A stretch of 34,938 nt of DNA from positions 1 to 34,938 of IMG/VR virus record IMGVR_UViG_3300037296_000122. One strand, written 5' to 3'. Under the pieces are notes generated by a model. The model worked only from the letters and a program-made list of their open reading frames with translations, did no database searches and was not told the origin of the DNA. The stretch is from a virus. The position numbers and the translations under genes were made by a program. This document shows positions 1,924 to 32,268 of this stretch, piece by piece (position 1 is the first letter of the stretch; every line of letters starts with the position of its first letter).

Positions 1924-3186
1924 TTAGTTAAAAAACGAGTTAACTTTCTCTTTATCAGCACGAACATATCGACTCATTAAAGTCTTAACATCGACACCGC
2001 TTGCTTCTTCTAATATCTTTAAATTTCCATTTACTTGCTCATTCATCTTAGATAGTCGTATATGCTTAAGCTCGTACATGTGAAGTAAATTCTTCTTTGT
2101 TGGTTTATATCCGGCCATCTTTCTTGCGTCAACCCACGCTTTATTTAAACCACCTTGAGAGATATTATTTCCATAGGCATTAGTGAAAACAAAGTCATTT
2201 TTGCTTGATGATGAATCTTGTTTAAGTATTATGTCTCTTGCGATCTTGCTTAGTTTTAAAGTTATTGAAGCCAACTTGTCGCCAGCTTTACGAGACTTTC
2301 GACCTTCAACGTTATCAGTCCCAGAGAAGTGAGAGTCAAAAGTAATTGTGTTATTATTCAAGTCTACATTTTCCCACTTTAAGGCGCGTATTTCTCCAGG
2401 TCTTACTGGGTAGATAGTTAGTAATAACATCAACCCTCGAAGCTTCACATCGTTAACGTGAGCTATTATATCGAGTCCAACGGCTTCGGTCATAGTATGC
2501 TCTCTAAGTCTTGATTTTCCAATTGTACCGATATCGACGACCTTGGTTATGTAGTCTCTTTTTTGAGCGAATAAAAGAATAGTTTTAAGTTCTGACTTAG
2601 CTTTCCTAAGAGTGTTATCAGTTCCCTCGAAGTTATCCTCAAACTTAGAAATATGATATTTCCTGATTTTATCGATTGATATATTAGCAAAGAACTCCAG
2701 TAGGTGCTTATGAGATTTCTTTTTATCCCTCAAACCCTCAAAGGTTAGCTGTCCTTTTTTATATCTCTTCTCGTGATGCTTCATATAGGAGAGAAGGAAG
2801 TTTTTAAAGATTAAGTTTTCTTGCTTCTTTTTGCTTTGATAGTCGTTGACATTGAACTCACCATTTTCTAAATCTCTTTTGATAATTCTGTATGTATAGA
2901 TAATGTCGGACTCAAACTTAAGACGTTCCTTGTCTTTAGTTCGCCTTATGGTTACGCGTTTGCTTTCGCCGTCCATATCTTCAATCTTTGCTGAAATTCG
3001 GAATAGGCTAGGAGGTTCTTTACATGAATCACATACAGGAAATTCAACATTTTCCTTAGTTTTACGACCTGTAAATTTACCACCGCACTCGCAAGTATTA
3101 CCTTTCACATCGGCATATATTTTAGCACTCAAGAAATTCCCTCTATTTGTTGGGTTATGAATGTTAAAAAGTACGGCCTTTGTCAT
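1924..3186 (-). CDS. int: Tyrosine recombinase / phage integrase with N-terminal zinc ribbon
   Basis: The 420-aa protein has a CxC...CxxC zinc-ribbon-like segment (C32, C34, C52, C55), a helical SAM-like core-binding region at about 120-215, and a C-terminal catalytic domain. Box I is VRPGEIRALKW, with the presumed catalytic R262 and E265. A basic turn at 296-304 may supply the catalytic Lys. LMSRYVRA holds the presumed nucleophile Y407. The usual HxLRH box appears as YELKH (371-375), so His becomes Tyr and Arg becomes Lys, and the later GH/W position is not obvious. The nearest GGAG is 13 bases before the ATG, suggesting weak translation. It is expected to recombine attP (1567-1597) with a host tRNA gene. 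Confidence 0.93.
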   Translation of the reverse strand: MTKAVLFNIHNPTNRGNFLSAKIYADVKGNTCECGGKFTGRKTKENVEFPVCDSCKEPPSLFRISAKIEDMDGESKRVTIRRTKDKERLKFESDIIYTYRIIKRDLENGEFNVNDYQSKKKQENLIFKNFLLSYMKHHEKRYKKGQLTFEGLRDKKKSHKHLLEFFANISIDKIRKYHISKFEDNFEGTDNTLRKAKSELKTILLFAQKRDYITKVVDIGTIGKSRLREHTMTEAVGLDIIAHVNDVKLRGLMLLLTIYPVRPGEIRALKWENVDLNNNTITFDSHFSGTDNVEGRKSRKAGDKLASITLKLSKIARDIILKQDSSSSKNDFVFTNAYGNNISQGGLNKAWVDARKMAGYKPTKKNLLHMYELKHIRLSKMNEQVNGNLKILEEASGVDVKTLMSRYVRADKEKVNSFFN

Positions 3187-3797: not shown

Positions 3798-4004
3798 TCA
3801 CCAGACGTAAGTCGCATCACCTTTTATGTCTCGATGCACTTCTAAATTTCCATATATTTCAATGTCGCTATGATTTAAATCTTCTTTTTTTATTAAAGGG
3901 TCGTATCTTACAGGTGCGCCGTTTTCAATTAGAGAGTCTATAAAATCTGAATAGTTCATTCTTTGAAAATCGACCTCCAAAACGTGCAACATTCCTTTAC
4001 TCAT
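3798..4004 (-). CDS. Small hypothetical early protein preceded by the 26-bp cassette
   Basis: A 68-aa acidic protein (MSKGMLHVLEVDFQRMNYSDF...). It follows copy 1 of an exact 26-bp repeat that ends in its ribosome-binding site: GGAGAAG stands right before AAATG. Thus its translation signal is shared, base for base, with the genes starting at 4286 and 4450. It has no recognised domain, Cys or membrane segment. Confidence 0.65.
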   Translation of the reverse strand: MSKGMLHVLEVDFQRMNYSDFIDSLIENGAPVRYDPLIKKEDLNHSDIEIYGNLEVHRDIKGDATYVW

Positions 4005-4008
4005 TTCT

Positions 4009-4034
4009 TCTCCATACCCATAAGGGTTATTTAA
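4009..4034 (-). repeat. 26-bp hairpin/ribosome-binding cassette, copy 1
   Basis: One of three identical 26-bp copies (others at 4292-4317 and 4455-4480). In gene sense it reads TTAAATAA, then the inverted repeat ACCCTTATGGGT, then ATGGAGA, which contains the Shine-Dalgarno sequence of the next gene. It lies entirely in the gap between two genes. Confidence 0.9.
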
Positions 4035-4040
4035 TCCAAC

Positions 4041-4286
4041 TTAAAATTTAACCATACCAAAAACCACAAAATCTTCTGCTTGCTCATAATCTGTAATATA
4101 GGTAATTATTCTAGAAACAGCATTGCCAGTGTACATATTGTGATTGTCAAACTCTCTTAGGCATACAATTTGACCAACTTGAAAATCTCTGTCATTTCTT
4201 CTTATCTCAAATGTTTTAGTCTCTTCTAATACATCTTGGAAATAATCAGTATGCAACTTAAGTTCTTGGTCATAATGTTTATCCAT
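4041..4286 (-). CDS. DUF3850-type ASCH/PUA-fold protein
   Basis: The 81-aa product matches the DUF3850 pattern: an HxLKL-like opening, YFQDVLEETKTFEIRRNDRDF, VGQIVCLREFD, then YTG and a final hydrophobic strand. This small family belongs to the ASCH/PUA-like fold, thought to bind RNA or modified nucleic acid, and is common in phage early regions. The frame is open up to 4304, inside the repeat. The ATG at 4286 is chosen because GGAG lies six bases upstream and the family starts near the HxLKL segment. It is preceded by copy 2 of the 26-bp cassette. The biochemical role is not established. Confidence 0.85.
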   Translation of the reverse strand: MDKHYDQELKLHTDYFQDVLEETKTFEIRRNDRDFQVGQIVCLREFDNHNMYTGNAVSRIITYITDYEQAEDFVVFGMVKF

Positions 4287-4291
4287 TTCAT

Positions 4292-4317
4292 TCTCCATAC
4301 CCATAAGGGTTATTTAA
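4292..4317 (-). repeat. 26-bp hairpin/ribosome-binding cassette, copy 2
   Basis: Identical to copies at 4009-4034 and 4455-4480. It contains the TAA stop (4310-4312) of the 46-aa gene upstream and the GGAG used by the DUF3850 gene downstream. Confidence 0.9.
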
Positions 4318-4450
4318 TCTTTAACAATGCTTTCTCTAAGTTATCTAACATAGGCTTTTTGTTTTGCTCCCCAAGGTGCATATCCCAAGCAATTAGCTTT
4401 TGAAGCTCACCGATAATCAAACACAAAGCCTCTTTTTCTTCTTGATTCAT
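4310..4450 (-). CDS. 46-aa hypothetical protein
   Basis: Read directly from the minus strand: MNQEEKEALCLIIGELQKL, then IAWDMHLGEQNKKPMLDNLE, then KALLKIK and TAA at 4310-4312. It is helical, with charged and leucine-rich faces. The ATG at 4450 has GGAGAAAGA just upstream, in copy 3 of the 26-bp cassette, and its stop is inside copy 2, so it exactly fills the interval between repeats. That fit and the good ribosome-binding site support it as real despite its size. No family recognised. Confidence 0.6.
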   Translation of the reverse strand: MNQEEKEALCLIIGELQKLIAWDMHLGEQNKKPMLDNLEKALLKIK

Positions 4451-4454
4451 TCTT

Positions 4455-4480
4455 TCTCCATACCCATAAGGGTTATTTAA
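4455..4480 (-). repeat. 26-bp hairpin/ribosome-binding cassette, copy 3
   Basis: Identical to copies 1 and 2. It lies between the stop of the 91-aa gene (4482) and the start of the 46-aa gene (4450). A looser relative (TATGGAGAAAGAATG preceded by an AGCC...GGCT inverted repeat) is found at about 4757-4790, inside coding sequence. Confidence 0.9.
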
Positions 4481-12064: not shown

Positions 12065-12078
12065 GGATACAATTGTAT
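12065..12078. promoter_or_regulatory. Operator 1 (GGATACAATTGTAT)
   Basis: Contains the perfect 12-base palindrome ATACAATTGTAT (12067-12078). It overlaps the -10 element of the leftward early promoter, so a bound repressor would block the early operon. A near copy (GGATACAATCGTAG) is at 12161-12174. Confidence 0.6.
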
Positions 12079-12082
12079 ACCA
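12074..12082 (-). promoter_or_regulatory. Leftward early promoter, extended -10 (TGGTATACA)
   Basis: In the minus sense TGGTATACA fits an extended -10 (TGnTATAAT) and lies 30 bases upstream of the Cro-like ATG. No good -35 is seen 17 bases upstream (TCTTTT), which is tolerable for extended -10 promoters. Confidence 0.45.
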
Positions 12083-12158: not shown

Positions 12159-12557
12159 ATGGATACAATCGTAGATTTTTCCATTTTCCTCAAAGAGGCA
12201 AGAAGTAAATCTTCACTTTCTCAATCTGATTTCGCTGAAAAGATTGGCATACCGATGGCAACTTTTAAGAGTTATGAGATGGGAAAGAGAGCGCCATCAT
12301 TGAATATAGCTATTTCTATCTGTCATAATCTTGGAATAAGTATCAGTGAGGCGATAGGGGAAGTTTCGCCAATAGAGAAGCCAAAAAAGGTCATCGATCT
12401 CGCACAATTCCTTTCTACGACAGCACAAAACTCTGAACTAATCAACCTTATAAGCCAACTACCAAAGAACGATGAATCTAAAGAACTTATTGAGGATTTA
12501 AAGGGAATGATAGAGTTTGAAATCAAGCGGAATCTTGATCTATCTCAAGAGGCTTAA
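12159..12557 (+). CDS. XRE-family phage repressor (short CI-like)
   Basis: The 132-aa protein has a clear helix-turn-helix at about residues 18-64: LSQSDFAEKIGIPMATFKSY followed by EMGKRAPSLNIAISICHNLG, the XRE/HTH_3 pattern. The C-terminal half is helical and lacks the Ser/Lys peptidase domain of RecA-cleavable CI or LexA repressors, so induction must act differently (for example by an antirepressor or by turnover). An operator-like sequence overlaps its own start codon, indicating autoregulation. It diverges from the Cro-like gene across 109 bp. No close Shine-Dalgarno is seen; AAGGG is 15 bases upstream. Confidence 0.85.
   Translation: MDTIVDFSIFLKEARSKSSLSQSDFAEKIGIPMATFKSYEMGKRAPSLNIAISICHNLGISISEAIGEVSPIEKPKKVIDLAQFLSTTAQNSELINLISQLPKNDESKELIEDLKGMIEFEIKRNLDLSQEA
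12161..12174. promoter_or_regulatory. Operator 3 candidate overlapping the repressor start
   Basis: GGATACAATCGTAG matches operator 1 at 12 of 14 bases and begins at the G of the repressor ATG. Repressor bound here would limit its own synthesis. Because it is also coding, the match could be partly chance. Confidence 0.45.
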
Positions 12558-12825: not shown

Positions 12826-13155
12826 ATGAAGTTTTTATTATTATTTTTATCTCTTTCGGTCTTTGCAGCAAATGATAATTATCACGAGAGTTTCATGTTG
12901 GGTTGTGCGGATGCCTTTCAATCTATGGAATCTCTAAGCGGGGGGAAGGTTTCTTTTAAAAGTTCGGAACTTAATAGGGAGTGCCAAAATATATTTAATA
13001 ACTTTGTGAGTACTACAGACTTTAAAAAAACAAAACCATATAGAATAATGTCATGTATGTACTCTGTCGCAGGAATCTATAGGTCTATGCTTCCAAATGA
13101 AAAGCTAGGGGTTAATGATCTTCATAGGGTTTCATCAAGTTTATGTAAAAAATAA
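12826..13155 (+). CDS. Secreted small cysteine protein, likely lysogenic-conversion (moron) gene
   Basis: The 109-aa precursor starts MKFLLLFLSLSVFA, a Sec signal peptide with probable cleavage near A14/A15. The mature part has four Cys (27, 53, 77, 107) that could form two disulfides, consistent with a periplasmic protein. AAAAGGAAAT precedes the ATG and a TATAAT is 28 bases upstream. It has its own promoter and sits between the repressor and the late operon, the usual place for genes expressed in lysogens. No family is recognised; host-envelope change or exclusion of other phages is possible. Confidence 0.72.
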   Translation: MKFLLLFLSLSVFAANDNYHESFMLGCADAFQSMESLSGGKVSFKSSELNRECQNIFNNFVSTTDFKKTKPYRIMSCMYSVAGIYRSMLPNEKLGVNDLHRVSSSLCKK

Positions 13156-13185: not shown

Positions 13186-13262
13186 GAGCCTAACTGTTTT
13201 TTATACCGTCTTAATAATCGATCTCGATAAATAGGTATAAAGAAACTCACCAGTTAGGGAGC
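13186..13262 (+). promoter_or_regulatory. Large imperfect inverted repeat before the sigma-like gene
   Basis: The left arm (13186-13207) is GAGCCTAACTG, a T-run, then TATACC. The right arm (13234-13262) is GGTATA, AAGAAACTCAC, then CAGTTAGGGAGC. CTAACTG/CAGTTAG and TATACC/GGTATA pair perfectly. The right arm includes AGGGAG, the ribosome-binding site of the sigma-like gene, so the structure could control its transcription or translation. Confidence 0.45.
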
Positions 13263-13266
13263 TGCA

Positions 13267-13944
13267 ATGCTTGACAAGGAAACAGTCATTAAGAAGGCGA
13301 GCGAGTATTTAGATTACTCAATTAACAAATACGCCTTTACTCAGTCCAGAGAGACAAAAGAAGATATTAAGCAAACTGGATTCGTTAGAGTCCTCGAAGC
13401 GTTTGAGCGTATCGATGAGAGCATGAACTCTTGGAAGTCTTATATTCAGAATCATTGCAACGGTGCCGTGCTTGACTACCTTAAAAGCCCTAAAAATTCA
13501 CGAAAAACATCAGAGCTATTCGATGGCACTTACATAGAAGCGGACGACCTCATTAATATGGGAATGTTCTACAATTCAGCACATGAAACAAAATTAAATA
13601 TTAAATGGGACTTAGTCTCAAGGATGGCAGCAAAAGATGACAGAGTTCTCTTGGTTGCTCGGTTCCTCCTTGGTTACACAATTTCAGATGTATCAACCAA
13701 CGCAACAATGAGCCGAGAGTCTATAACGTGCAAATTTCAAGATTTCTGTAGCTCTCTCGACGATGGTTTTAATGTTAATGACCCTTGGACTAATCAAATA
13801 ATCTACGCCTTTGGTCTATCTCACAGGTTCAGCGTGAGCGAGCATGACAACGGTTGGGGGTGGGATAGCGAACCAATAAACATATTTGTTACAGATATGA
13901 AGTTTCAAAAGAAGGTTTATACGCCTCAAATGGATTTGATATGA
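13267..13944 (+). CDS. Phage sigma-70-family-like RNA polymerase sigma factor
   Basis: A 225-aa protein. Residues 33-72 (DIKQTGFVRVLEAFERIDES... WKSYIQNHCNGAVLDYLK) follow the region 2 pattern of sigma factors: DLxQxGxxGLxxAxxxFD...SFxTYxxxxIRGAxLDYLR. The GAVLDYLK end resembles the FliA/sigma-28 or sigma-B version. Residues 115-163 (LVSRMAAKDDRVLLVARFLL and GYTISDVSTNATMSRESITC) resemble region 4. The roughly 60-residue C-terminal tail is unlike known sigmas. It heads the late operon, so it probably directs host RNA polymerase to late promoters. The region 2 match is clear by eye; activity is inferred. Confidence 0.65.
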   Translation: MLDKETVIKKASEYLDYSINKYAFTQSRETKEDIKQTGFVRVLEAFERIDESMNSWKSYIQNHCNGAVLDYLKSPKNSRKTSELFDGTYIEADDLINMGMFYNSAHETKLNIKWDLVSRMAAKDDRVLLVARFLLGYTISDVSTNATMSRESITCKFQDFCSSLDDGFNVNDPWTNQIIYAFGLSHRFSVSEHDNGWGWDSEPINIFVTDMKFQKKVYTPQMDLI

Positions 13945-14624
13945 TCGATTTAAGAATGGGCGACTGCCTTGAGGTTATGAAAGATATTCCAGACAACTCT
14001 ATTGATATGGTTTTGACTGATCCTCCTTATGGCATGGACTATCAGTCTTCTTGGAAGACTGATAGTAGTAAGAGATTCAGCAAAATAAAAGGCGATAAAA
14101 AACCTTTTGTTTGGTTTCTTAGAGATGCATTTAGGGTGTTGAAAGATGATAGCTGTATCGTTGTGTTTACGGACTGGAAAAACCAAGAGGCATTTAAGTT
14201 AGTCTTAGAAATAGCTGGATTTAAAGTTAAGTCTCAAGTTGTTTGGAATCGTATGCACCACGGTATGGGTGATTTAAAAGGTGCTTTTGCACCTATGCAC
14301 GACATTGCGTGGTTCGCTGTTAAAGGCAATTATAAATTTAAAGGCAAGAGACCTAAAGACGTTCTTAGTCACAAAAGACTAGGTGGTCACGAAATAAGCC
14401 ACCCAACTATGAAGCCTGTAGGCTTAAATGAAGAGATACTTGAAAGCACCACAGGTAGTGACGATGTTGTGCTTGATTGCTTTATGGGAAGCGGCTCAAC
14501 CGGAGTAGCTTGCAAGAATCTAAATAGAAGATTCATAGGTATTGAAATGGATGAGAACTATTTTAATATTGCCAAGGATAGGATTAATAATACACCACAA
14601 CAAAACTTGGCAAAGGTGGTCTAA
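13941..14624 (+). CDS. Beta-class DNA methyltransferase (N6-adenine/N4-cytosine)
   Basis: The 227-aa enzyme has motif IV TDPPYGMDY at 26-34 and motif I FMGSGSTGVA at 181-190, followed by FIGIEMDENYF. HPTMKP at 154-159 is the conserved HPTxKP box. The order IV, target region, I makes it beta class. Such enzymes move a methyl group from S-adenosylmethionine to adenine N6 or cytosine N4. No restriction nuclease gene is adjacent, so it is an orphan, probably for protecting phage DNA or for marking sites. The target cannot be read from sequence. It overlaps the sigma-like gene by four bases. Confidence 0.93.
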   Translation: MIDLRMGDCLEVMKDIPDNSIDMVLTDPPYGMDYQSSWKTDSSKRFSKIKGDKKPFVWFLRDAFRVLKDDSCIVVFTDWKNQEAFKLVLEIAGFKVKSQVVWNRMHHGMGDLKGAFAPMHDIAWFAVKGNYKFKGKRPKDVLSHKRLGGHEISHPTMKPVGLNEEILESTTGSDDVVLDCFMGSGSTGVACKNLNRRFIGIEMDENYFNIAKDRINNTPQQNLAKVV

Positions 14625-16190: not shown

Positions 16191-17618
16191 ATGTCATACG
16201 AACTTGATGTACTTATTAAGGAGCTTATACGTCGCAAGAATATAATCGAGCGAGTAAGTGCATCAAAGAAAGTTGACGAGTTAGCATTTCAAAAGCAAAA
16301 AGACTACATCGCTGACAGAGAGCATCACCGATTTAGATCAATGAAATGTACAAGGCGAGCGGGGAAGTCCTCGGCTGATGTGCTTGAGAACTTCCTAATA
16401 GCCGACCAATTCCCAGAGTCTCGCCTGATCTATGGAGCTTTAACGCTTGACTCATCAATTGAGATTGCATGGGATATGTATCTAGACTTTGCTGAGCAGT
16501 TTAAGATTAACTTGAAGCCAAGAGCGGGTAAATATCTTATATGGCCCAATGGTTCAAAGCTTAGGTTCTTTGGTCTTGATTCATCTCAAAAAGAAATGCG
16601 CAAGATTCTAGGGCAAAAGCTTCGCAAGGCTTCAATCGACGAGGCAGGCTCAATTACTGTTGATATGAAGAAAGTCGTCTATCAGATGATTATGCCAGCT
16701 CTTTCAGATTTACGCCCTAACTCATGGATGACACTACTTGGAACGTGCGAGAACATACCTAACACATTCTTTGAGAAAGTAACAGAGGGTAGGGAGGTAA
16801 CCGTTCCTTGGTCTCGTCATGAGTGGACGGCATACGATAACCCTCACATGGTTGAGCAGTGGACTGATGAGATAAACGATCTAAAAACAACAAATCCTAA
16901 AATTATAGAGGCTTCATGGTTTAGAACTCACTTTCTTAATGAGTGGTGTACTGACGATGATCTTAGAATCATATTCTTTGACGATCAAAACAAGGTTGAT
17001 AAGCTTCCAGATGGTCATGAGTGGTCGTATATCCTCGGTGTTGACATTGGTTACAACGATGCCAACGCTTTTACGGTGGTTGCGTTCTCTTACACCTCTC
17101 CAAATGTTTATTTTATAGATAACTTTAAGAAAGCTGAGATTGATCTATCAGGTGTTGCAGCGATTATTAAGCATATAAAAACAAAATACGACATTATGAA
17201 AGTGATTATCGACGGTGCAAATAAGCAGGGTATCGAAGAAATTAAGAATCGACATGGCTTGCAACTTCAAATTGCTGAGAAAACAGACAAAGCAACATAT
17301 TTAAGACTCATGAAAGATGATTTTGTTACCAAGCGTGCCTTCTTACTCGATAAAGAAACTGAACCACTGCAAGAAGAGTGGGAAGCTTTGCAATGGGTTA
17401 ACGATCAAAAAGAGAAAGAAGACCCACGTTGTCAAAACCACTCTTCGGACTCGGCTTTATATGCTTGGCGAGAAGCTAGGCATTTTACTTATAGAGAAGA
17501 GGATAAAGAACCTCACCGCGACACTTCCGACTATATGGAGAAGAGAGCGAAAGAGGAAGCGGAACAAATGAGGCGAGAAGCTGAGGAGCGAGACGAATGG
17601 AATCCGATGAATTGGTAA
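16191..17618 (+). CDS. terL: Terminase large subunit
   Basis: The 475-aa protein has the ATPase and nuclease parts expected of TerL. A Walker A variant CTRRAGKS is at 53-60 and Walker B ASIDE at 147-151. The RNase H-like nuclease has D285 in ILGVDIGYND, D341 in VIIDGANKQG and D420 in NHSSDSALYA. TerL pumps DNA into the procapsid and cuts it at the end. Its length is normal. The last codons overlap a 66-aa gene; the C-terminal tail is highly charged. Whether packaging is headful or at cos ends is not shown, but circular permutation would fit headful. Confidence 0.97.
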   Translation: MSYELDVLIKELIRRKNIIERVSASKKVDELAFQKQKDYIADREHHRFRSMKCTRRAGKSSADVLENFLIADQFPESRLIYGALTLDSSIEIAWDMYLDFAEQFKINLKPRAGKYLIWPNGSKLRFFGLDSSQKEMRKILGQKLRKASIDEAGSITVDMKKVVYQMIMPALSDLRPNSWMTLLGTCENIPNTFFEKVTEGREVTVPWSRHEWTAYDNPHMVEQWTDEINDLKTTNPKIIEASWFRTHFLNEWCTDDDLRIIFFDDQNKVDKLPDGHEWSYILGVDIGYNDANAFTVVAFSYTSPNVYFIDNFKKAEIDLSGVAAIIKHIKTKYDIMKVIIDGANKQGIEEIKNRHGLQLQIAEKTDKATYLRLMKDDFVTKRAFLLDKETEPLQEEWEALQWVNDQKEKEDPRCQNHSSDSALYAWREARHFTYREEDKEPHRDTSDYMEKRAKEEAEQMRREAEERDEWNPMNW

Positions 17619-19622: not shown

Positions 19623-20582
19623 ATGGATTTAGAACAAGCACAACCACAAGAAGGAGTGAGTCCTAATGTCGCGAATAAAATCGCATCACAAGAAGATTCA
19701 ACAACGAACGAAAGCCCATTTATGGAGAGCGAGCCGACTATTGAAGACGCTATTGCCGCAATGGAAGGTGAAAGCCAAGGTGAAGACGAGAAAACTCAAG
19801 AAGCACCTAAACAAGAAGTAAAAGAAGAGCCAAAAGCTGAAACTAAAGAAGAGAGTCTCTCATCTGAGAAGTTTGTTGAACTTGCAAGGCTAGAGAGTAA
19901 ACATCAAGCTGAAATGCTTGAGATGAAAAAGAAGCTTGAAGGGTTTGAAGGTAAGAAGTCCAAAGACGAGCTTCTTGCTGAGCTTAAAGCTGAGTATAAA
20001 AAGAATCCTCGCGAGTTCTTAGAGAAGGAACTAGAGGGGTCTTACGACTCGTTAAGCGACTTTATTTTGAATGAAGAGGAAAGAACCGCTGAAAGTAAAA
20101 CAATGAGCGTAATTGATGAATTAAAAGCTCAGGTTAATGAATTAAAAGAAGAAAGAAATCAAGAGAAAGAGACTCAAAAGACCGAAGCTGTAAAAAAGCA
20201 AGAGAGCGAGTTTAAGGATAGTATCAAAAACTTTGTGTCTGAGAACGAGGATTTTTCACTTGTGAAAGAACTTGATGAGTCTGGAACGGTTTTTGATGTA
20301 ATGATGGAGCATTTCAACGAGACAGGTAAGACAATGGATATCAACGATGCTTGTCAAAAGGTCGAAGATTACTACGTTGACTCTGTTAAAAAGATTATGC
20401 ACATAGAAAAAGTTAAAAATCTTTTTAATCTCGATAATATACCAAAGAAGCAAAATGAAAGTGAAGAGAATGAAAACCAGTCAGAAACAATAACGAATGA
20501 TCTTGGAACTCAATACTCGGAATCTGAAATAGATTCTATGTCTGATGAAGAGAGAATGAGGCTTGCCCTAGAGATGATCTAG
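19623..20582 (+). CDS. Capsid scaffolding protein
   Basis: A 319-aa, highly charged protein dominated by Glu and Lys, with long coiled-coil stretches (about 75-120 and 155-205). There is no Cys except C242 in the helical C-terminal part. Position between portal and major capsid protein, together with the coiled-coil composition, is diagnostic of scaffolding proteins that shape the procapsid and then leave. No protease motif is seen. GGAGCTGTA precedes the ATG. Confidence 0.85.
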   Translation: MDLEQAQPQEGVSPNVANKIASQEDSTTNESPFMESEPTIEDAIAAMEGESQGEDEKTQEAPKQEVKEEPKAETKEESLSSEKFVELARLESKHQAEMLEMKKKLEGFEGKKSKDELLAELKAEYKKNPREFLEKELEGSYDSLSDFILNEEERTAESKTMSVIDELKAQVNELKEERNQEKETQKTEAVKKQESEFKDSIKNFVSENEDFSLVKELDESGTVFDVMMEHFNETGKTMDINDACQKVEDYYVDSVKKIMHIEKVKNLFNLDNIPKKQNESEENENQSETITNDLGTQYSESEIDSMSDEERMRLALEMI

Positions 20583-20592
20583 GTTTTATTTT

Positions 20593-20618
20593 CAAAGTTA
20601 TTTTTTGTTCGCCAGTTA
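20593..20618 (+). promoter_or_regulatory. Candidate sigma-28-like late promoter before the capsid gene
   Basis: CAAAGTTA (20593-20600) and GCCAGTTA (20611-20618), ten bases apart, resemble FliA/sigma-28 elements (TAAAGTTT, 11 bases, GCCGATAA) at 6/8 and 5/8 positions. The element is in the 86-bp gap before the major capsid gene. CCAGTTAG also occurs at 13250-13257 before the phage sigma-like gene. Confidence 0.35.
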
Positions 20619-20668
20619 GTGAATTTATTTTTTTAAACACAAAACTAAACTCTAACAAGGAATAAGAA

Positions 20669-21859
20669 ATGACTTTAGACTTAAACAAGGCGAGAGCAGT
20701 TTTAAAAACTCTCTACACGCCAAAAGCAGTAGAAAATTTATGTTACCAAGAGCACCCGTTTCTTGCTTTAATGCAAAAAAACGATCAGTTCTATGGTCAC
20801 AATAAGCAAATCCCTTTAATTTACGGTTCAAACAGAGGTAGATCAAGCTCTTTTGCAAAGGCTCAAGCAAACAAAGGTAACTCAGCGTTCGCAGCTTTCT
20901 TTACAACAAGAGTTTCTGACTACTCGATTGCATCTTTTGATGCTGAAACTGTTGAGGCTTCGGAAAATGATAAAGGTGCATTTGTTAACCTTATCAAGCA
21001 AGAAGTTGATGGAGCTATGATGAGCGCCGCTCAATCTGACTCTCAAGCTATTTGGGGTAACGGTTCGGGTTCAATTGGTGAGATTGCTTCAATTTCTGTT
21101 GATACTTTAACTCTTACAAATGTTGAGGACATCATTCATTACGAGATTGGTCACTATTTAGAAGCTGCCGCACTTGAAACATCAGGGGCAACAAGAGTTG
21201 GAATCATGAAAGTTATCGCTCTTGACAGAGATTTAGGAACAATCACGGTTGATACTAAGTCGACTTCTCTTGCAGTTGGTGACTTTCTTTTCACTGATGG
21301 TGATAGAAACTCTAAAATGAGTGGATTTGAGGCTTGGATTCCAAGAATCGCGCCGACAAGTGGAGATAGTTTCTTTGGTCTTGATAGATCAGTAGATTCT
21401 ACTAGGCTTGCGGGTGTTAGATTCAACGGTGTTGGTATGTCAAATGAAGAGGCACTTGTTAAAGGTCTTGCTAGGCATTCGAGAGAAGGCGCTAGGCCAG
21501 ACTTCGCATTCATGAACTCTGGAAGATGGGGAGACTTACTTCTTGAGCTAGGTTCTAAAGTTAACTATGTTGACGTTAAAACTGGTTATGCTGATATCGG
21601 ATTTAGAGGTGTGCAAGTTCACGCTGGTAAGAGAACGATCACAGTCCTTTGTGATGATAATGTTGCAAGCGATCAAATCGCTGTTGTAACAAGAAAATCA
21701 TGGCAACTAGACTCTCTTAAGAAATCAATCAGAATCCTTGATCTTGATGGAAATAAATTCCTAAGAGAAAGTGATGCTGACGGTTACGAACTTAGAGTTG
21801 GTGGTTATAAGCAAGTTCAGTGTAATGCTCCAGCATACAACATGAACATAACGTTTTAA
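20669..21859 (+). CDS. Major capsid protein
   Basis: The 396-aa protein begins MTLDLNKARAVLKTLYTPKA and later holds QEVDGAMMSAAQSDSQAIWG, then EALVKGLARHSREGARPDFA, and a C-terminal strand GGYKQVQCNAPAYNMNITF. Size, a mixed alpha-beta layout without signal peptide, and position after scaffold support an HK97-fold coat protein. AAGGAATAAGAA gives strong translation. A candidate late promoter lies upstream and an intrinsic terminator directly downstream, which would make this the most expressed late gene. Confidence 0.92.
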   Translation: MTLDLNKARAVLKTLYTPKAVENLCYQEHPFLALMQKNDQFYGHNKQIPLIYGSNRGRSSSFAKAQANKGNSAFAAFFTTRVSDYSIASFDAETVEASENDKGAFVNLIKQEVDGAMMSAAQSDSQAIWGNGSGSIGEIASISVDTLTLTNVEDIIHYEIGHYLEAAALETSGATRVGIMKVIALDRDLGTITVDTKSTSLAVGDFLFTDGDRNSKMSGFEAWIPRIAPTSGDSFFGLDRSVDSTRLAGVRFNGVGMSNEEALVKGLARHSREGARPDFAFMNSGRWGDLLLELGSKVNYVDVKTGYADIGFRGVQVHAGKRTITVLCDDNVASDQIAVVTRKSWQLDSLKKSIRILDLDGNKFLRESDADGYELRVGGYKQVQCNAPAYNMNITF

Positions 21860-22258: not shown

Positions 22259-22507
22259 ATGATTATGAATGGAAACGATAAAAGAAAAATTGCTCAGACT
22301 ATTGTTAAGCAAATGGTTCCCACAGAGGTTGCAGACGTGGAATACGACGCATCTCTTGGTTTTGAGGCGTGCGCCAGAGATATAATGAAAGCGATCAAGG
22401 AAGATAACGCTGTATTACTCGGACGCGCTTTAAAATCTCTTGGAGACATGATTCATGAGAAGAGTAATTATTCTAAAAACGTAAGTATTAATATAGGGGA
22501 TAAGTAA
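22259..22507 (+). CDS. Small hypothetical late protein
   Basis: An 82-aa helical protein (MIMNGNDKRKIAQTIVKQMV...) with KAIKEDNAVLLGRALKSLGD and a polar tail. It lies between the beta-rich head protein and the head-tail adaptor, and its stop overlaps the adaptor start by one base. Possibly a head-tail connection or assembly accessory. No family recognised. Confidence 0.62.
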   Translation: MIMNGNDKRKIAQTIVKQMVPTEVADVEYDASLGFEACARDIMKAIKEDNAVLLGRALKSLGDMIHEKSNYSKNVSINIGDK

Positions 22508-23142
22508 TGAGTGGAACGGTCTCTCTTTCTGATTTAATAATAAAAATTAGACGTCGCTCAAACATGGAGAGATCAAAGCTAGTTACTGATTCTGAAATCA
22601 CCGACTATATAAATACATCTATTGCAGACCTCTACGACCTGATTATTGATTGTAGAGGCGAGCAATATTTTGAGTCTAGTGTTGATATCACTATGATAAA
22701 CGGCTCGGAGCTTTACGATCTACCACTTGACTTTTATAAAGTTGAAAGCGTTTTGACGGACTCTGGATATCCCATAAATACGTTTGATAGAAGGGACGCT
22801 CACCACAAGGCTAAGAATCTCTCTTATAGTATTAGGGGGAATAAATTTGCAGTTAATCGCTCTGACTCTAACCAAAAATTAAAAATGTTTTATATCCCGC
22901 TTGCTCCAACTTTGGTTGCTCCAGAAGATACAACAGATTTTTACAATGGCTGGGAAAGATACGTTGTATGTGATTGCTCAATAATTTGCCTTAACAAAGA
23001 GGAAAGCGACACGGCACAACTGGAAAGAGAACTAGACAGAATGCAAAGACGAATCAAATCATCATCAGATAAAAACACTCATCAACCATCAAGGGTTGTT
23101 GATGTCGAAGGGCGTTTTCATGAAGATAGAGAAATTTACTAA
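22507..23142 (+). CDS. Head-tail adaptor protein
   Basis: The 211-aa product has the adaptor pattern: LIIKIRRRSNMERSKLVTDS, then EITDYINTSIADLYDLIIDC, GSELYDLPLDFYKVESV, and a C-terminal helical RMQRRIKSSSDKNT followed by PSRVVDVEGRF. The INTSIADLYDLI helix and YDLPLDFYK strand are usual in gp11/P22 gp4-class podovirus adaptors that fit beneath the portal. Its gene is in the right place, between head and tail nozzle genes. It overlaps the next gene by 23 bases. Confidence 0.8.
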   Translation: MSGTVSLSDLIIKIRRRSNMERSKLVTDSEITDYINTSIADLYDLIIDCRGEQYFESSVDITMINGSELYDLPLDFYKVESVLTDSGYPINTFDRRDAHHKAKNLSYSIRGNKFAVNRSDSNQKLKMFYIPLAPTLVAPEDTTDFYNGWERYVVCDCSIICLNKEESDTAQLERELDRMQRRIKSSSDKNTHQPSRVVDVEGRFHEDREIY

Positions 23143-23422: not shown

Positions 23423-26413
23423 ATGCTACAAAAACAAATTATAGATATTGAGCTTGCTCAAGGTATTGAGACTCAGGTTGACGATAAGATTGTTCAAGGT
23501 AAGAACTTGGTACTTGAAAACGCGACGTTCAATAAGTTTAAAGCTTTACAGAAATGTGGAGGTTTCTCAGAATATCCTCACGCTACCTTGGATGATGGCA
23601 GTATACTAGGTTCAGTAGAATCAGTTTTCAAAAACGGCAAAAGCTTAATGTGCGTAACCTCAGATAGATCGTTTTATCGATTTGATGAGATAGAGCAAAA
23701 ATGGAGAAGGCTTGAGGGTGCACTGTTTCCATCTAAAATGGATTCTTACGGTGTTAAGTACTCAGGAAACACTCAAAATAAACCCGACATAGACTTTAAC
23801 GAGAGGCTTGGTTTTGTCGCAACAGTGTTTGAAGAGTTTCGCCCAACTGTTGCGGGTGACTATAGAGTTGTTTTAACTGTGAAGGACATCGATAAGGAAG
23901 AGGAGAACTCCGTTGTCGTCGAGGTTGACTCAAGAAATCCGAGAGTCGCTTGTTTTGATAATGGTGACAATGCTTTTTATGTCGTTTACTATGTTGAGTC
24001 AGGCAGTATCTCATATAAGATATATAACTCTTCTCTAGTTGAAATAAAAAAAGGTTTCTTTACGGGTGATACGAGTGTTGGTGTTATATCTCACGACAGA
24101 GTTGGTGACTCTTCATATCTTATTTTTAAAGACACTTCTATTGCTACAGATAGCAGAATAACAATTTTTGATTTTGATTTCGATAACCCGACAACTCCAA
24201 TAGTTAACACTTCTCTTTATTCAAATCCAGACGGATTCAATAATAAGGGATTTAGAGTTCTAAAAACTGATACAAATATCTTTTACGCAAGTATTAACAA
24301 TGATGATAACGTTGAATTAATTGGCTACAATTTAGATAATACAATCGTAACTCATCCCAGAAATGAAGTCATTATTGAGGGTTCACTTAATATGGCTCCC
24401 GATAAGGTTGAAATCGGTGTTAATTCGGGCGTTCTCACTGTTTTTGTGGGAGGACTCTCGGACACTATAGGTTATGGGACTAGAGTCGACACAATACTCG
24501 CTTTTACTTTTGATATCTCTATTGGCTTATTCACTCCAATAAATGAGTACAAAAGTTACGGCATGGTAATGAGAAGTAACTTTATACAAGAAGGGTCATA
24601 TTTTTATGGCCTAGTCGCTCACAAATCAAGCGTTCAAGCCACAGACTTTTTTTGCAGGATTAGCGTGTCAATTGAGCCGTTCGAGATCATAGAAAGCACA
24701 ACAAAGGCAGTTAAGGTTGATATATTGGCGAACACTTTAAAGGGTGCATCGTCAGGAGTCGGAGACTTTAGTTTGCAGTCATCAATTAAAAAATCAGGAG
24801 CTTGCTTTTATATAGCTCACGAAAGAGCTAGACGTTTTATCGCTGAGACTGATGAATCAACAGATGGCTCCAGCATATTTGTTTTAAAGGTTGATATGGG
24901 AGACTTCTCAGCACAGTTTGATGAGTTTGGAAGTACCTCTTTAGTCGTTGGTGGATTGGTACTCGATACTGATGGCGATACGGTAAGTGAAAATGGATTC
25001 ATGATCGCCCCTGAGGTTTTTAAGATAGGAGATAACGGGGCTGGGTCTTTAACCGCTGGAACTAGAGGTTATAAGCTAGTATATGAACACTACAACTCTA
25101 AAGGTGAGTTAGTTAGATCAACGCCAAGCGCCTCAAAATCCTTTACAAATACGGCGAGTAAGGAAAACATAATATCCTTCGTTGCCTCCCCCTTTACTTA
25201 CAGGGGTAAAAACTCGAGCAAGGTTGTCGTCTATCGAACTATTGCAAATGGAACTGTTCACCATAGGTTAAAAGCTTTTGAGCTAAGCGCTGAGTATTTT
25301 CCCTATGAAGAAATTGCAACTGTGGATGATATTAGCGACTCAGCTATTGAGTCCAATGAGATTCTATACACTGAGGGCGGTGAGATTCAAAACGACTCAG
25401 CCCCTTATGCGAGGTCTGTGACGGTTGCAAAAAACAGAGTATTTTTAGCTGACTTAGATATTCCAAATGAAATAGGTTATTCAAAATTAGGACAGTACGA
25501 AATCGGCCCAAGTTTTTCAGATTTCTACAGGATAGCAATTGACTCTTCACAAAGAGATGAAAAAGGAACTGTCAAAGCAGTTTCGGCTCTTGATGATAAA
25601 ATTATTTTATTTAAAGAGAGCGCGATTTACTACATCGTTGGTAGTGGCCCAAATAATAACGGGCTAGATGATGATTTTTCAACGCCAGAGTCACTTTCAT
25701 TTGATGTTGGTTGCTCAGATATTAACTCAATTTTACTCTTGCCCGATGGTATCTTGTTTAAATCGTTAAAAGGTTTCTACTTTATTGATCGTGGTTTATC
25801 CCTTTCTTATATTGGAAATGCCGTTCACGAGTTCAATGATTCCCCTGTCAAATCCTCCCTTATCGTCGAGAAAGAGAACGAGGCGAGGTTTTACTTGGAG
25901 TCAGGGAAAACTCTCGTCTTCCATTACTTACTTCAAGAGTGGGACACTTTTACTTATTCTGGAGACTCAGCTGTAAATATTAACGGTGATGTTTATTTTG
26001 TTAAAGATAAAAACATTTACAAGAATGATAATACTTTCACTTTTGACGATACTTTCTACTCAATGAAAGTTGTTACACCTTGGCTTAAAATAAGCTCACT
26101 ACAAGGGTTTCAAAGAGTGTACAGGTCAATTGTCACGGGAGAGTATAAAAGCCCTCACGATCTCGTCATAAGGGCGTATTTTGATTATGACGACACATAT
26201 TTTGAGGATCATGTTATTTCGGTTGATGGAAGTAACACTCTTCCCAATTACAGCTTTGATGCTCACATAGGAAATCAAAAATGTTCTGCCATAAAATTTG
26301 AAATATTCGATAATCCTACAAGTGGAGGTGAGTCGATGGAACTTAATGTTTTATCGGTTCAGTACGGCGCCAAGAAGGGTGTCAAGAAATCAAATATAGC
26401 TCAAAGGTTTTAA
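23423..26413 (+). CDS. Large tail nozzle/stabilization-like protein
   Basis: The 996-aa protein is almost all beta-strand. It opens MLQKQIIDIELAQGIETQVD, followed by NKFKALQKCGGFSEYP, the usual start (ligand-like parameter line plus GG.. motif) of podovirus nozzle or stabilization proteins. Later VSALDDKIILFKESAIYYIV and DVGCSDINSILLLPDGILFK, then GFYFIDRG, show propeller-like repeats. It is larger than T7 gp12 but normal for this phage type. It is expected to form the hexameric tube under the adaptor. Its stop overlaps the next ATG. Confidence 0.82.
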   Translation: MLQKQIIDIELAQGIETQVDDKIVQGKNLVLENATFNKFKALQKCGGFSEYPHATLDDGSILGSVESVFKNGKSLMCVTSDRSFYRFDEIEQKWRRLEGALFPSKMDSYGVKYSGNTQNKPDIDFNERLGFVATVFEEFRPTVAGDYRVVLTVKDIDKEEENSVVVEVDSRNPRVACFDNGDNAFYVVYYVESGSISYKIYNSSLVEIKKGFFTGDTSVGVISHDRVGDSSYLIFKDTSIATDSRITIFDFDFDNPTTPIVNTSLYSNPDGFNNKGFRVLKTDTNIFYASINNDDNVELIGYNLDNTIVTHPRNEVIIEGSLNMAPDKVEIGVNSGVLTVFVGGLSDTIGYGTRVDTILAFTFDISIGLFTPINEYKSYGMVMRSNFIQEGSYFYGLVAHKSSVQATDFFCRISVSIEPFEIIESTTKAVKVDILANTLKGASSGVGDFSLQSSIKKSGACFYIAHERARRFIAETDESTDGSSIFVLKVDMGDFSAQFDEFGSTSLVVGGLVLDTDGDTVSENGFMIAPEVFKIGDNGAGSLTAGTRGYKLVYEHYNSKGELVRSTPSASKSFTNTASKENIISFVASPFTYRGKNSSKVVVYRTIANGTVHHRLKAFELSAEYFPYEEIATVDDISDSAIESNEILYTEGGEIQNDSAPYARSVTVAKNRVFLADLDIPNEIGYSKLGQYEIGPSFSDFYRIAIDSSQRDEKGTVKAVSALDDKIILFKESAIYYIVGSGPNNNGLDDDFSTPESLSFDVGCSDINSILLLPDGILFKSLKGFYFIDRGLSLSYIGNAVHEFNDSPVKSSLIVEKENEARFYLESGKTLVFHYLLQEWDTFTYSGDSAVNINGDVYFVKDKNIYKNDNTFTFDDTFYSMKVVTPWLKISSLQGFQRVYRSIVTGEYKSPHDLVIRAYFDYDDTYFEDHVISVDGSNTLPNYSFDAHIGNQKCSAIKFEIFDNPTSGGESMELNVLSVQYGAKKGVKKSNIAQRF

Positions 26414-29046: not shown

Positions 29047-31847
29047 AAGTTCTCGACCTTAAGACCAATAAACTTGTTGATGATTACTTTGATATTGAAA
29101 ACAAGGTTAGTGCTGGCGAGTATGCTTTTGAGAAAGGCGATATTGAGGTTGTTTCTCCAAGTGGTGAAAAAGGTGTAATTCCTTCGGCTAATATAAAAGA
29201 CGCTTTTAAAACAGGGTTTAAATATTACACGCCACTAATGAAAAAAGAGGACGAACTCAAAAAGGAATACGGCGAGGGAATTGGTGCCGAAGTCGCTGCG
29301 GGTGGCTTAGGTGCTGCAAGAGGGATTACTTTTGGAATCTCGGATCAAATTTTAACCAAATTAGACTTACTAAAACCAGAGGCAATAAAGGCCTATAGAG
29401 ATTTAAATCCTACCTCTTCACTCCTTGGAGAGATTGGCGGGACTGTTGGCCCCGCATTGTTGTCGGGTGGTTCCAGTTTACTTGCTAAGGGTGCAGCTAA
29501 AACACTCCCCTCACTAGCCTTAAAAGGTGGTATGGGCGCGGGTAAAATCGCAGCAAAGGGTATTCAAGGTAAAATAGCAAACAAAGCGGTTTCTAAGATA
29601 GTTGAGAATACAACTAAAGCTGGCGTTGGTTCGGCTGTTGAGGGTGCTCTTTATGGTACGGGTCAATTAATTTCAGAGGACGCTCTCGGTGATGCTGAGT
29701 TTAACGCTGAAAATCTTCTAGCTTATGGTGCCGAGGGTGCCGCATACGGTGGTTTAATTGGTGGAGCTATACCTTTAGTCGGGTCGGCAATTGGAAAGGT
29801 CGCAAAAGGCTCTAAGAGGGTTATTGATAAGAATTTGCTAAAGCAGCTTGGCGTTAAAAACGCTGACGATATAATTGAAAGAAATGCTCAAAATCAAGAA
29901 TTTGAATCTATAATTGAAACAATCCAGAAAAAAGAATATCCAAATATTGTGAAGGCTGGAGAAACTCTTGGGATTGAGCCAACTCAAGGAATGTTATCAA
30001 GTAATAAACTTATTCAAGACTTGGAATCTTCTATTTCTCAAGCTCCTACATATTACGGGGGGAAAGTAGCAACCGAAGTTGATGCTGTTTATGACGGTCT
30101 TAGCGGTGCTATCGGCGAGACTGTGGGCGATATTGCTCAAGGGCAAAGAAAATCATTGTTTGAGGCTGGCGAATCAATAAAAACAAATCTATCCAATGAT
30201 CTAAATGAAAAAATAAGCGGCGCTAAAAAGTTTTACAAAGAGCTTGATGAAACGTTTGGTTCTAGTCCCGTTTCTATTGAGATTAAGGATGGTTTGAAAA
30301 AAGATCTTTTAGGTTCTAACGCCAATAGACTATTCAAATCTAAAGATGTTGAAAGTATAAATAGCATGATCGACGCAATAGAAAGTGTAAGTGATGCTAA
30401 AACCGTAAGAACATACATCGGAAAAGAAATGAGCGCGGCTTATAGAGCTGGCGATTTCAATAAATATGAAATATTTGACACTGCATACGACTCTATAACT
30501 AAATTAAGAGAGGACGCAATAAGACAAGCCTCTGGAAATTCAGAGGAAATTATTAATGGATTGAATCGAGCAAATAAGTCTTACGCTGGAATTTTTAAAG
30601 ACTTCGGTGATGTTGCCAAGGCTTTGAAGATTGGTAAAATCAAGGGAGTTAGCCATCTTGAGGATGCTCTTAATGCTATTGAACCCGAAAAGGTTGCTCA
30701 AAGATTTTTTTCAAACAAAAACTTTTCTAATAATGCAAAATTAAAAGAGTTATTCCCAGAGTCTTTTGAGACAGCGAGACAAGTAAAGCTTGGAGATATT
30801 TGGGATAAGTCACAAACTCCTAAAGGTGAAATTTCTGTTCGTAAATTTGTAAATAATATAAAAAAACTAGGAAAAGAAGAGAGTGATTTAATATTTGGGG
30901 CTGACAAGAGAGAGACTCTTGAGGCTATTGAAACACTCGCTAACTCGATTCCTGATAAAGTAGGGCCATCTGGTACAGCTCAAGCACAAGACCTTTTTAA
31001 TTTCTTTTCTATATACACTCAAGGTAGAGATGCGATCAGGTATGCTCTTTATAGAAAGGGCGAGAAAGGAATAAATAAATATCTAAATGAAACTGTAGAT
31101 GTATTTAAAAACATCGAGAGAAGCTCAAATCAAGCCAAGGTTGCAATCTCTGACTCAGTTGAGTCGTTTATAAAAGGGACTTCTCAAGTTCCTACAATCG
31201 CAATGCTGAACGCTGGAGAGTCAAGGAACTACGATCAAGCTATTAAGTACCTTGCTGAGTATGAACTGCAACCAGAGGAAACTTTGGAGAAGATTACAGG
31301 TAAAAATAAGATGTTATTTGATAATGCTCCAAAGACCTCGGAGGCTTTCGCTGGTAAAACTATGCAAGTTTTCCAATTCTTAAAAGAAAAACAACCCGCG
31401 TCTTATGATGGTATGGGTTACTTCAATAAATACCAAACTAGCAAATCCGAAAAAATGAAATTCATGCGTTACTATAATTATGCCAATGATCCTAAAAGGG
31501 TATTTTCAGACCTTAAAAATGGCTTTGTTCGCCCAGAGGGTGTTGAGACTATGAGGACTCTTTATCCAAGAATGTATGAAGAGCTATATAACGAGATAAC
31601 TTCGAGAGTGGCAGAAAAAGAAGACCTAACTTATAAGCAAAAGAAAAACCTCTATAATATGCTTTCAATCGTTGGGGCTTCTTCTTTGATTCCAGACAAT
31701 TTAAAAATGCTTCAAGGTCAAATGCAAGAGACACAAGAGACTGTTAAGGCCCAAACAAATCAAAATAAAAACAATCTAAGAGTTACAGGTTTGAGAGAAG
31801 TTTCTCAGGCTGACAGATTTAAAACTAAACTCGATAAGATATCATAG
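29043..31847 (+). CDS. Large internal virion / DNA ejection protein 2
   Basis: The 934-aa product has a short beta-like head (VLDLKTNKLVDDYFD), then glycine-alanine-rich hydrophobic stretches at about 80-105, 130-175 and 230-260 (GAEVAAGGLGAARGITFGIS), and long helical regions to the end. This is the usual make-up of the large ejection protein of podoviruses. No transglycosylase or peptidase motif is seen, so any wall-degrading activity must lie elsewhere. It is the last gene before a 64-bp gap leading to the fibre genes. Confidence 0.78.
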   Translation: MKVLDLKTNKLVDDYFDIENKVSAGEYAFEKGDIEVVSPSGEKGVIPSANIKDAFKTGFKYYTPLMKKEDELKKEYGEGIGAEVAAGGLGAARGITFGISDQILTKLDLLKPEAIKAYRDLNPTSSLLGEIGGTVGPALLSGGSSLLAKGAAKTLPSLALKGGMGAGKIAAKGIQGKIANKAVSKIVENTTKAGVGSAVEGALYGTGQLISEDALGDAEFNAENLLAYGAEGAAYGGLIGGAIPLVGSAIGKVAKGSKRVIDKNLLKQLGVKNADDIIERNAQNQEFESIIETIQKKEYPNIVKAGETLGIEPTQGMLSSNKLIQDLESSISQAPTYYGGKVATEVDAVYDGLSGAIGETVGDIAQGQRKSLFEAGESIKTNLSNDLNEKISGAKKFYKELDETFGSSPVSIEIKDGLKKDLLGSNANRLFKSKDVESINSMIDAIESVSDAKTVRTYIGKEMSAAYRAGDFNKYEIFDTAYDSITKLREDAIRQASGNSEEIINGLNRANKSYAGIFKDFGDVAKALKIGKIKGVSHLEDALNAIEPEKVAQRFFSNKNFSNNAKLKELFPESFETARQVKLGDIWDKSQTPKGEISVRKFVNNIKKLGKEESDLIFGADKRETLEAIETLANSIPDKVGPSGTAQAQDLFNFFSIYTQGRDAIRYALYRKGEKGINKYLNETVDVFKNIERSSNQAKVAISDSVESFIKGTSQVPTIAMLNAGESRNYDQAIKYLAEYELQPEETLEKITGKNKMLFDNAPKTSEAFAGKTMQVFQFLKEKQPASYDGMGYFNKYQTSKSEKMKFMRYYNYANDPKRVFSDLKNGFVRPEGVETMRTLYPRMYEELYNEITSRVAEKEDLTYKQKKNLYNMLSIVGASSLIPDNLKMLQGQMQETQETVKAQTNQNKNNLRVTGLREVSQADRFKTKLDKIS

Positions 31848-31859
31848 AAGTAAATTAAT

Positions 31860-31916
31860 CTCATCAGTCATTGAGGTCTAGGGCAAAAATCCAAATCCAA
31901 TAGGAGGACTGATGGG
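31860..31916 (+). promoter_or_regulatory. Long-range hairpin burying the start codon of the next gene
   Basis: CTCATCAGTC (31860-31869) pairs with GACTGATGGG (31907-31916) over ten positions with one T-G pair. The right arm contains the ATG at 31912-31914, and the ribosome-binding TAGGAGG sits at the base of the 37-base loop. Folding would hide the start codon. Confidence 0.5.
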
Positions 31917-32268
31917 AAGACGACATTTTACAAAACCATTTAATATTTTAAACGAGCAAGATGCTAGCACAGGTTTCGAGTCTGCGTGGACTGACGTTTC
32001 ACAATACGACAATATTAGTTACTTGATAGATTGGACTGATACCGTTGATGGTGTTTTGTCTGTTGTCTCATCTGATAAAAACGGCGGCGGTGTAGAGCAT
32101 AAGCTAGACTTCGGTTCTATTATTCCAATAAATGACTCTGTAGTTCCTAAACAACATCAAATTGTTATTAACACAATCGCTCAAAGCTTTTTTAAACTTT
32201 CTTTTGAGTCAACGTCTGGGACGGGTGTTTTGAACGCTGTCATAACCATGACAAGTAAGGGGGCGTAA
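31912..32268 (+). CDS. Small beta-rich tail-associated protein
   Basis: A 118-aa protein (MGRRHFTKPFNILNEQDAST...) composed of short strands with Ser/Thr/Asp turns and no Cys, suggesting a beta-sandwich. AGGAGG precedes its ATG, but the start is inside a long hairpin. It overlaps the fibre gene by one base. It is probably a fibre-attachment or tail-surface protein; no family is certain. Confidence 0.65.
   Translation: MGRRHFTKPFNILNEQDASTGFESAWTDVSQYDNISYLIDWTDTVDGVLSVVSSDKNGGGVEHKLDFGSIIPINDSVVPKQHQIVINTIAQSFFKLSFESTSGTGVLNAVITMTSKGA

Follow-up and report, generated by a model that had tools for sequence, protein, structure and literature searches.

Two podoviruses, 7-11 and phiEco32, switch to their late genes by means of experimentally proven sigma factors of their own, gp47 and gp36, respectively (PMC8948821). 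The 7-11 sigma promoters are bipartite (GTAAtg-16-aCTA), lie before late genes and are read by gp47 (PMC8948821). Among prophages, PBSX has Xpf, which one paper lists as a sigma factor with two domains (PMC10141391). Here we describe a locus in a 34,938-base virus record, referred to below in its full length as the window, together with relatives gathered by terminase and capsid protein searches among virus contigs.

The reading frame that an earlier note on this DNA had described as sigma-factor-like is a real gene of 225 codons with an ATG start, and the string GAVLDYLK that the note had singled out lies at residues 66-73:

13267..13944, plus strand: phage sigma factor, 225 aa (NCBIfam TIGR02937, E=1.4e-8; PHROG 1740, E=7.4e-8; Pfam Sigma70_r2, E=8.6e-5)

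These three sigma-family matches are far beyond chance and bear out the likeness. The protein is laid out as region 2 (about residues 4-74), a variable linker (75-112), region 4 (about 114-163) and a C-terminal extension (166-225). Of the two regions that the earlier note had assigned, region 2 is the best-supported part of the protein: the Pfam alignment spans residues 22-74 with 22.7 bits, just missing the curated cut-off of 24. Region 4 is weak by sequence, giving when taken alone weak Pfam matches in the orthologs only (E=0.018 and 0.048). The profile comparison proposed as a check matched both regions jointly, with the TIGR02937 (sigma70-ECF) alignment running from residue 24 to residue 153; the window protein scores 34.6 bits, below the curated 42.9, and the orthologs in G004 and G005 reach 44.5 bits, above it (best ortholog E=1.5e-11). 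Each of the three distinct family members is matched by PHROG 1740 ("RNA polymerase sigma factor"; best ortholog 4.2e-12), although most cellular control genomes give matches to this profile too, so that a match alone does not tell a phage sigma from a host one. The earlier label "FliA-like" did not survive: the FliA/WhiG model gives 21.2 bits against a cut-off of 189.6, in region 2 only and with no region 3 detected, and sigma70-ECF and PHROG 1740 fit far better. Judged by its sequence, the gene encodes a sigma-70-family protein of a two-domain, ECF-like kind (region 2 plus region 4).

The last 60 or so residues had been called novel, and they indeed match nothing in Pfam, NCBIfam or PHROGs, yet they are strongly conserved across the three distinct phage sequences (NQIIYAFGL, DNGxGWDxEP, KxVYxxQMxLI); we count this conserved extension of a predicted phage sigma as new here. 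For the structure comparison, also proposed earlier, AlphaFold produced poor models in two runs on three sequences (mean pLDDT 53.9 and 53.0). The PDB neighbours that Foldseek found for the first model are mostly sigma factors, namely sigma-28, SigH, SigE region 2 (TM 0.71 to the target) and T4 gp55 (7d7c; TM 0.47 to the target), but none has an E value below 0.1, and we treat the likeness to the sigma fold as supportive only. Many neighbours of the low-confidence model in a viral structure library are likewise phage sigma factors; a search of the PDB by sequence gave no sigma match.

Three other contigs carry full-length orthologs (two near-identical to each other) at 56-61% identity to the window protein, and the clade is small, with three distinct sigma sequences. 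The orthologs occupy the same position as in the window, in front of the block with the terminase, portal and capsid genes; in G001, which is long enough to show it, the gene comes directly after the immunity region. The claim that it heads the late operon stands: the virion block opens with it wherever it occurs among the relatives, and in the window this rightward block begins at 13267 and runs on to the last position. Its genes are, in order, sigma, methyltransferase (window only), small terminase-like, acetyltransferase-like, RusA-like, a short gene, large terminase, portal, scaffold and major capsid. The landmarks used below are:

13941..14624, plus strand: N6/N4 DNA methyltransferase (Pfam N6_N4_Mtase, E=1.5e-39), overlapping the sigma stop
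16191..17618, plus strand: terminase large subunit, within the sigma-headed block (PHROG 2, E=1.8e-29)
20669..21859, plus strand: major capsid protein (PHROG 14242 major head protein, E=5.3e-15)
31912..32268, plus strand: conserved small protein of 118 aa, from the gene that comes first behind candidate promoter 2 (also kept in L037 and L038)

The methyltransferase gene is inserted between the sigma and small terminase-like genes and is absent there in the orthologous loci. No phage in the collection of isolates matches the major capsid protein of this phage group, and the 118-aa protein has no match in Pfam. The adaptor protein (22507-23142) matches Pfam SU10_adaptor (E=1.9e-9), which ties the virion module to SU10-like podoviruses. 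SU10 is described as a podovirus in a paper that also deals with phiEco32 (PMC4281155); because the adaptor family is named after it, podovirus morphology is plausible for the window phage.

Outside this clade, the sigma profile found no match in the whole records of the other 23 distant terminase relatives, many of which are fragments; host genomes scanned for terminase and for sigma contained no relatives, and degenerate-codon scans for further orthologs returned the known ones only, the remaining matches being by chance. Weak partial matches to region 4 alone occur in sigma-less G027 (26051-26191) and G012 (35662-35745), within frames of 199 and 166 aa that may be HTH genes with another role.

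Both the domain matches and the neighborhood bear on a different reading of the protein, as a sigma-related late regulator rather than a true sigma: an HTH protein like ArpU/RinA or Q that works as antiterminator or activator at a site close to its gene. A RusA resolvase is encoded near the sigma gene, as in lambdoid late-regulator regions; one ortholog matches Phage_antitermQ weakly (E=0.0064, residues 117-159), at 16.9 bits against a cut-off of 26 and with no match in the window protein; and one family member matches the Q-like PHROG 79 (0.0088). The last of these does not discriminate, because the proven sigma 7-11 gp47 has an equally weak PHROG 79 match (0.0058). Q proteins, moreover, are without region 2, the next reading frame begins at 13941, before the sigma stop at 13944, leaving no room directly downstream for a late promoter and a Q site, and the element described below is located at two distant genes, which speaks against a local antiterminator. 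We take the resemblance to Q to be an HTH-level match, as far as the alignments go, and regard this reading as quite unlikely.

Downstream of the sigma gene, just two gaps in the late block exceed 40 nt (20583-20668 and 31848-31911). Alignment of the gaps across phages revealed a shared core; with an upstream box added to it, the two-box pattern (A/C)AGTNA-N10-13-YAGTYANNGAR has exactly two copies in the window, both in these gaps:

20595..20623, plus strand: two-box element, candidate late promoter 1 (AAGTTA-N12-CAGTTAGTGAA), beginning 74 bp before the major capsid gene
31848..31875, plus strand: two-box element, candidate late promoter 2 (AAGTAA-N11-CAGTCATTGAG), beginning 64 bp before the gene at 31912

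The first is kept in L002/L004, L005 and L006/L007 (the 6-kb contig of L005 ends before the sigma position), and the second in G001 and G004. The near-identical pattern is expected by chance 0.06 times per genome, a figure to be read with the knowledge that the pattern was refined after the sites had been seen; leave-one-out prediction is the fair measure. A matrix from which a genome's own capsid site had been excluded predicted the second-gap site in three of three genomes (p=0.0004, 0.0018 and 0.0006), and the 16 leave-one-out tests on control gaps all gave p >0.06, none reaching p=0.05. Aligned to each other by a plain local method within one genome, the two late gaps gave no significant result (p 0.11-0.95), and we therefore relied on the prediction across genomes. 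When a 16-nt matrix built from the capsid gaps of four phages only was run over both strands of the window, the capsid site ranked first, a site in the sigma leader (13246) second and 31860 third.

The element also accompanies the sigma gene, which independently supports a late role for the protein. Sigma-bearing relatives have it at matching places, upstream of the capsid gene in all of them, whereas the sigma-less relatives gave one match in 285 kb, and it is found in none of 13 sigma-less capsid upstream regions (a few of these are near-duplicates, and 11 of the 13 gaps are just 11-36 nt long). What the computation shows is homology, synteny and a conserved two-box element that co-occurs with the sigma gene. 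Since 7-11 has low-copy bipartite elements before late genes that are read by gp47, we propose that the two-box elements are promoters for a phage sigma holoenzyme; the candidate pair, as delimited from sequence, is counted as new here.

A true sigma might instead act elsewhere, with the two-box element serving as the site of another protein or as a host-sigma promoter. The link between element and sigma gene is a correlation, and the sigma gene itself has no upstream copy with both boxes, as this explanation would allow; set against it are the presence of the element in all sigma-bearing relatives and its absence from sigma-less capsid upstream regions. A host promoter finds little to build on in the capsid gap, where the interval 20500-20700 holds no sigma-70-type promoter-like site; the interval 31780-31950 has one weak match of that type (9 of 12), ending at 31845. 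No RNA folding signal was seen in the late gaps, and for that reason an RNA-hairpin reading of the element was rejected as well. Overall we consider a separate reader of the element rather unlikely. Another candidate, CTCGATAA as a -10 motif, was discarded: it has five exact plus-strand copies, several of which are Leu-Asp-Lys codons within coding sequence that track protein conservation. Just ahead of candidate promoter 1, at the end of the scaffold gene, lies a further feature, for which a consensus scan found one instance against 0.0 expected in shuffles:

20567..20583, plus strand: terminator-like hairpin (CCTAGAGATGATCTAGG-TTTT)

The placement of gene and elements also speaks to a third possibility, that the phage sigma acts on host genes, and so on host physiology, rather than on a phage late switch. 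Some Bacillota phages are reported to have sigma factors that shift host physiology, and phage sigma factors acting on host dormancy have been described (PMC9429907). In our phages the sigma gene comes first in the virion block of all relatives that show it, and the repeated elements lie inside that same block, both of which argue against a host-directed role, and we hold it to be very improbable.

The leader of the sigma gene has features of its own:

13189..13266, plus strand: sigma leader hairpin, in which CCTAACTG (13189-13196) pairs with CAGTTAGG (13251-13258)
13246..13261, plus strand: box-B-like half-site CTCACCAGTTAGGGAG, at the sigma ribosome site and within the leader hairpin, with no upstream box

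The 3' arm of the inverted repeat overlaps the ribosome site AGGGAG. Compared with shuffled sequences, the leader folds at z=-2.4 in the window and z=-3.1 in its L002 equivalent, and the hairpin is unsupported in the L006 equivalent (z=-0.2); it is likely a translational or processing control. The half-site stands out against leader shuffles in the window (p=0.0002), is borderline in G004 (p=0.058) and is unmatched in G001 (p=0.74). Because it overlaps the sigma ribosome site, translation signals may explain part of its conservation.

Further left, the window has the genes of a temperate phage:

1924..3186, minus strand: integrase (PHROG 1, E=9.4e-29)
12159..12557, plus strand: CI-like repressor, part of the immunity region and located upstream of the sigma gene (PHROG 8, E=2.1e-11, and others)

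The predicted integrase marks a temperate lifestyle. Beside it, on the minus strand at about 1568-1597, is a sequence resembling a tRNA 3' end, GGTGGGGGTTCAAGTCCCCCTCCGAGCACC, flanked by two 30-nt direct repeats (1498 and 1660); ARAGORN found no complete tRNA, and the interval 1498-1690 is probably attP together with arm sites for the integrase. A near-palindrome, GGATACAATTGTATACC (12065-12081), lies between the divergent repressor genes, has a half copy at the repressor start (12161-12169) and is likely the operator. G001 has a different palindrome, of the GCGAATACGC type, at the operator position, and therefore the immunity specificities of the two phages probably differ. The slot between repressor and sigma gene (12826-13155) holds a small protein with a signal-peptide-like start, and G001 has a lipoprotein-like gene there; these are possible lysogenic conversion genes. 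In the leftward early gaps, three copies of a 40-nt repeat with CTCCATACCCATAAGGGTTATTTAA (3995-4480) lie directly before start codons, a possible early regulatory or translation element. At the ends of the record, a gene runs off the right side (34938) and lysis genes open the left (1). G001 has this order unbroken, as a long gene, lysis-type genes, a lipoprotein and the integrase, because of which the window record looks like a near-complete permuted genome.

Our main reading, to which we give a probability of roughly 0.7, is that a sigma of the phiEco32/7-11 kind directs the host core polymerase to two late two-box promoters. After induction or infection, the phage sigma would bind host core RNA polymerase, and the holoenzyme would be directed to the phage-specific promoters at 20595-20623, before the major capsid gene, and 31848-31875, before the gene at 31912. 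Transcription of the capsid and distal virion genes would be raised above read-through from the operon head, with the major capsid gene as the main target, and the leader hairpin over the ribosome site may hold back sigma synthesis. Core binding, the element's function as a promoter, its recognition by the phage sigma and the timing are the steps that we infer; the late genes are probably switched on by a re-aimed host polymerase, not by antitermination. The earlier observation is thus confirmed and its interpretation partly supported: the late role gains from the two-box element, whereas the proposed distinctness of such a switch in a podovirus does not hold in principle, phiEco32 and 7-11 having come before (PMC8948821). 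A bolder version, which we find doubtful though worth stating, is that a temperate lineage swapped lambda-type antitermination for its own sigma acting on a new class of two-box promoters, with the clade-specific C-terminal domain and the leader hairpin keeping the sigma silent in lysogeny as a built-in lysis-lysogeny lock.

For a phage group with a major capsid protein unmatched among isolates, the locus offers a sigma-promoter pair that can be tested. If the main reading is true, a phiEco32-type strategy known from large lytic podoviruses also drives the late genes of a small phage that has an integrase and a repressor, which raises the question of how the phage sigma stays off in a lysogen; a sigma paired with a promoter class of its own might also serve as an orthogonal expression tool.

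Among known systems, 7-11 resembles the window phage through its SaPh711_gp47: a PHROG 1740 match (1.1e-38), region 2 plus a region 4 (weak in the window protein), a bipartite motif in the gaps before late genes and a hairpin before the sigma gene. It differs in its 90-kb genome, with the sigma gene in a leftward cluster, in the length of gp47 (185 aa, without the C-terminal extension), in the sequence of its promoter boxes and in the type of hairpin (PMC8948821). The phiEco32 factor gp36 shares PHROG 1740 (1.9e-45) and plausibly the podovirus setting and is an ECF-type sigma for middle and late genes, but its promoters are single elements (tAATGTAtA), the genome is 77 kb and gp36 is reported to have no homology to region 4 (PMC8948821). 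Direct pairwise comparison of the window protein is very weak with gp47 and not significant with gp36, and the link to both therefore rests on the PHROG profile; on sequence grounds, a distant relationship to the phage ECF-type sigma factors is the best placement for the window protein. Xpf, likened here by description, resembles it in being a small prophage-encoded positive control factor of the two-domain sigma type, and belongs to a defective prophage of a Gram-positive host, Bacillus subtilis. T4 gp55 is a sigma-like late factor of a phage and appears among the structural neighbours; it depends on a coactivator as well as the sliding clamp, and a -10 box is all that it recognises. FliA (sigma-28) is represented among the fold neighbours too, and a geometry of the two boxes like that of FliA promoters was considered, which we do not claim. 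Taken against these systems, late genes run by a phage sigma in a podovirus have precedents in principle, and what is new, besides the candidate promoter pair and the conserved tail, is the setting in a small phage that carries an integrase and a repressor.
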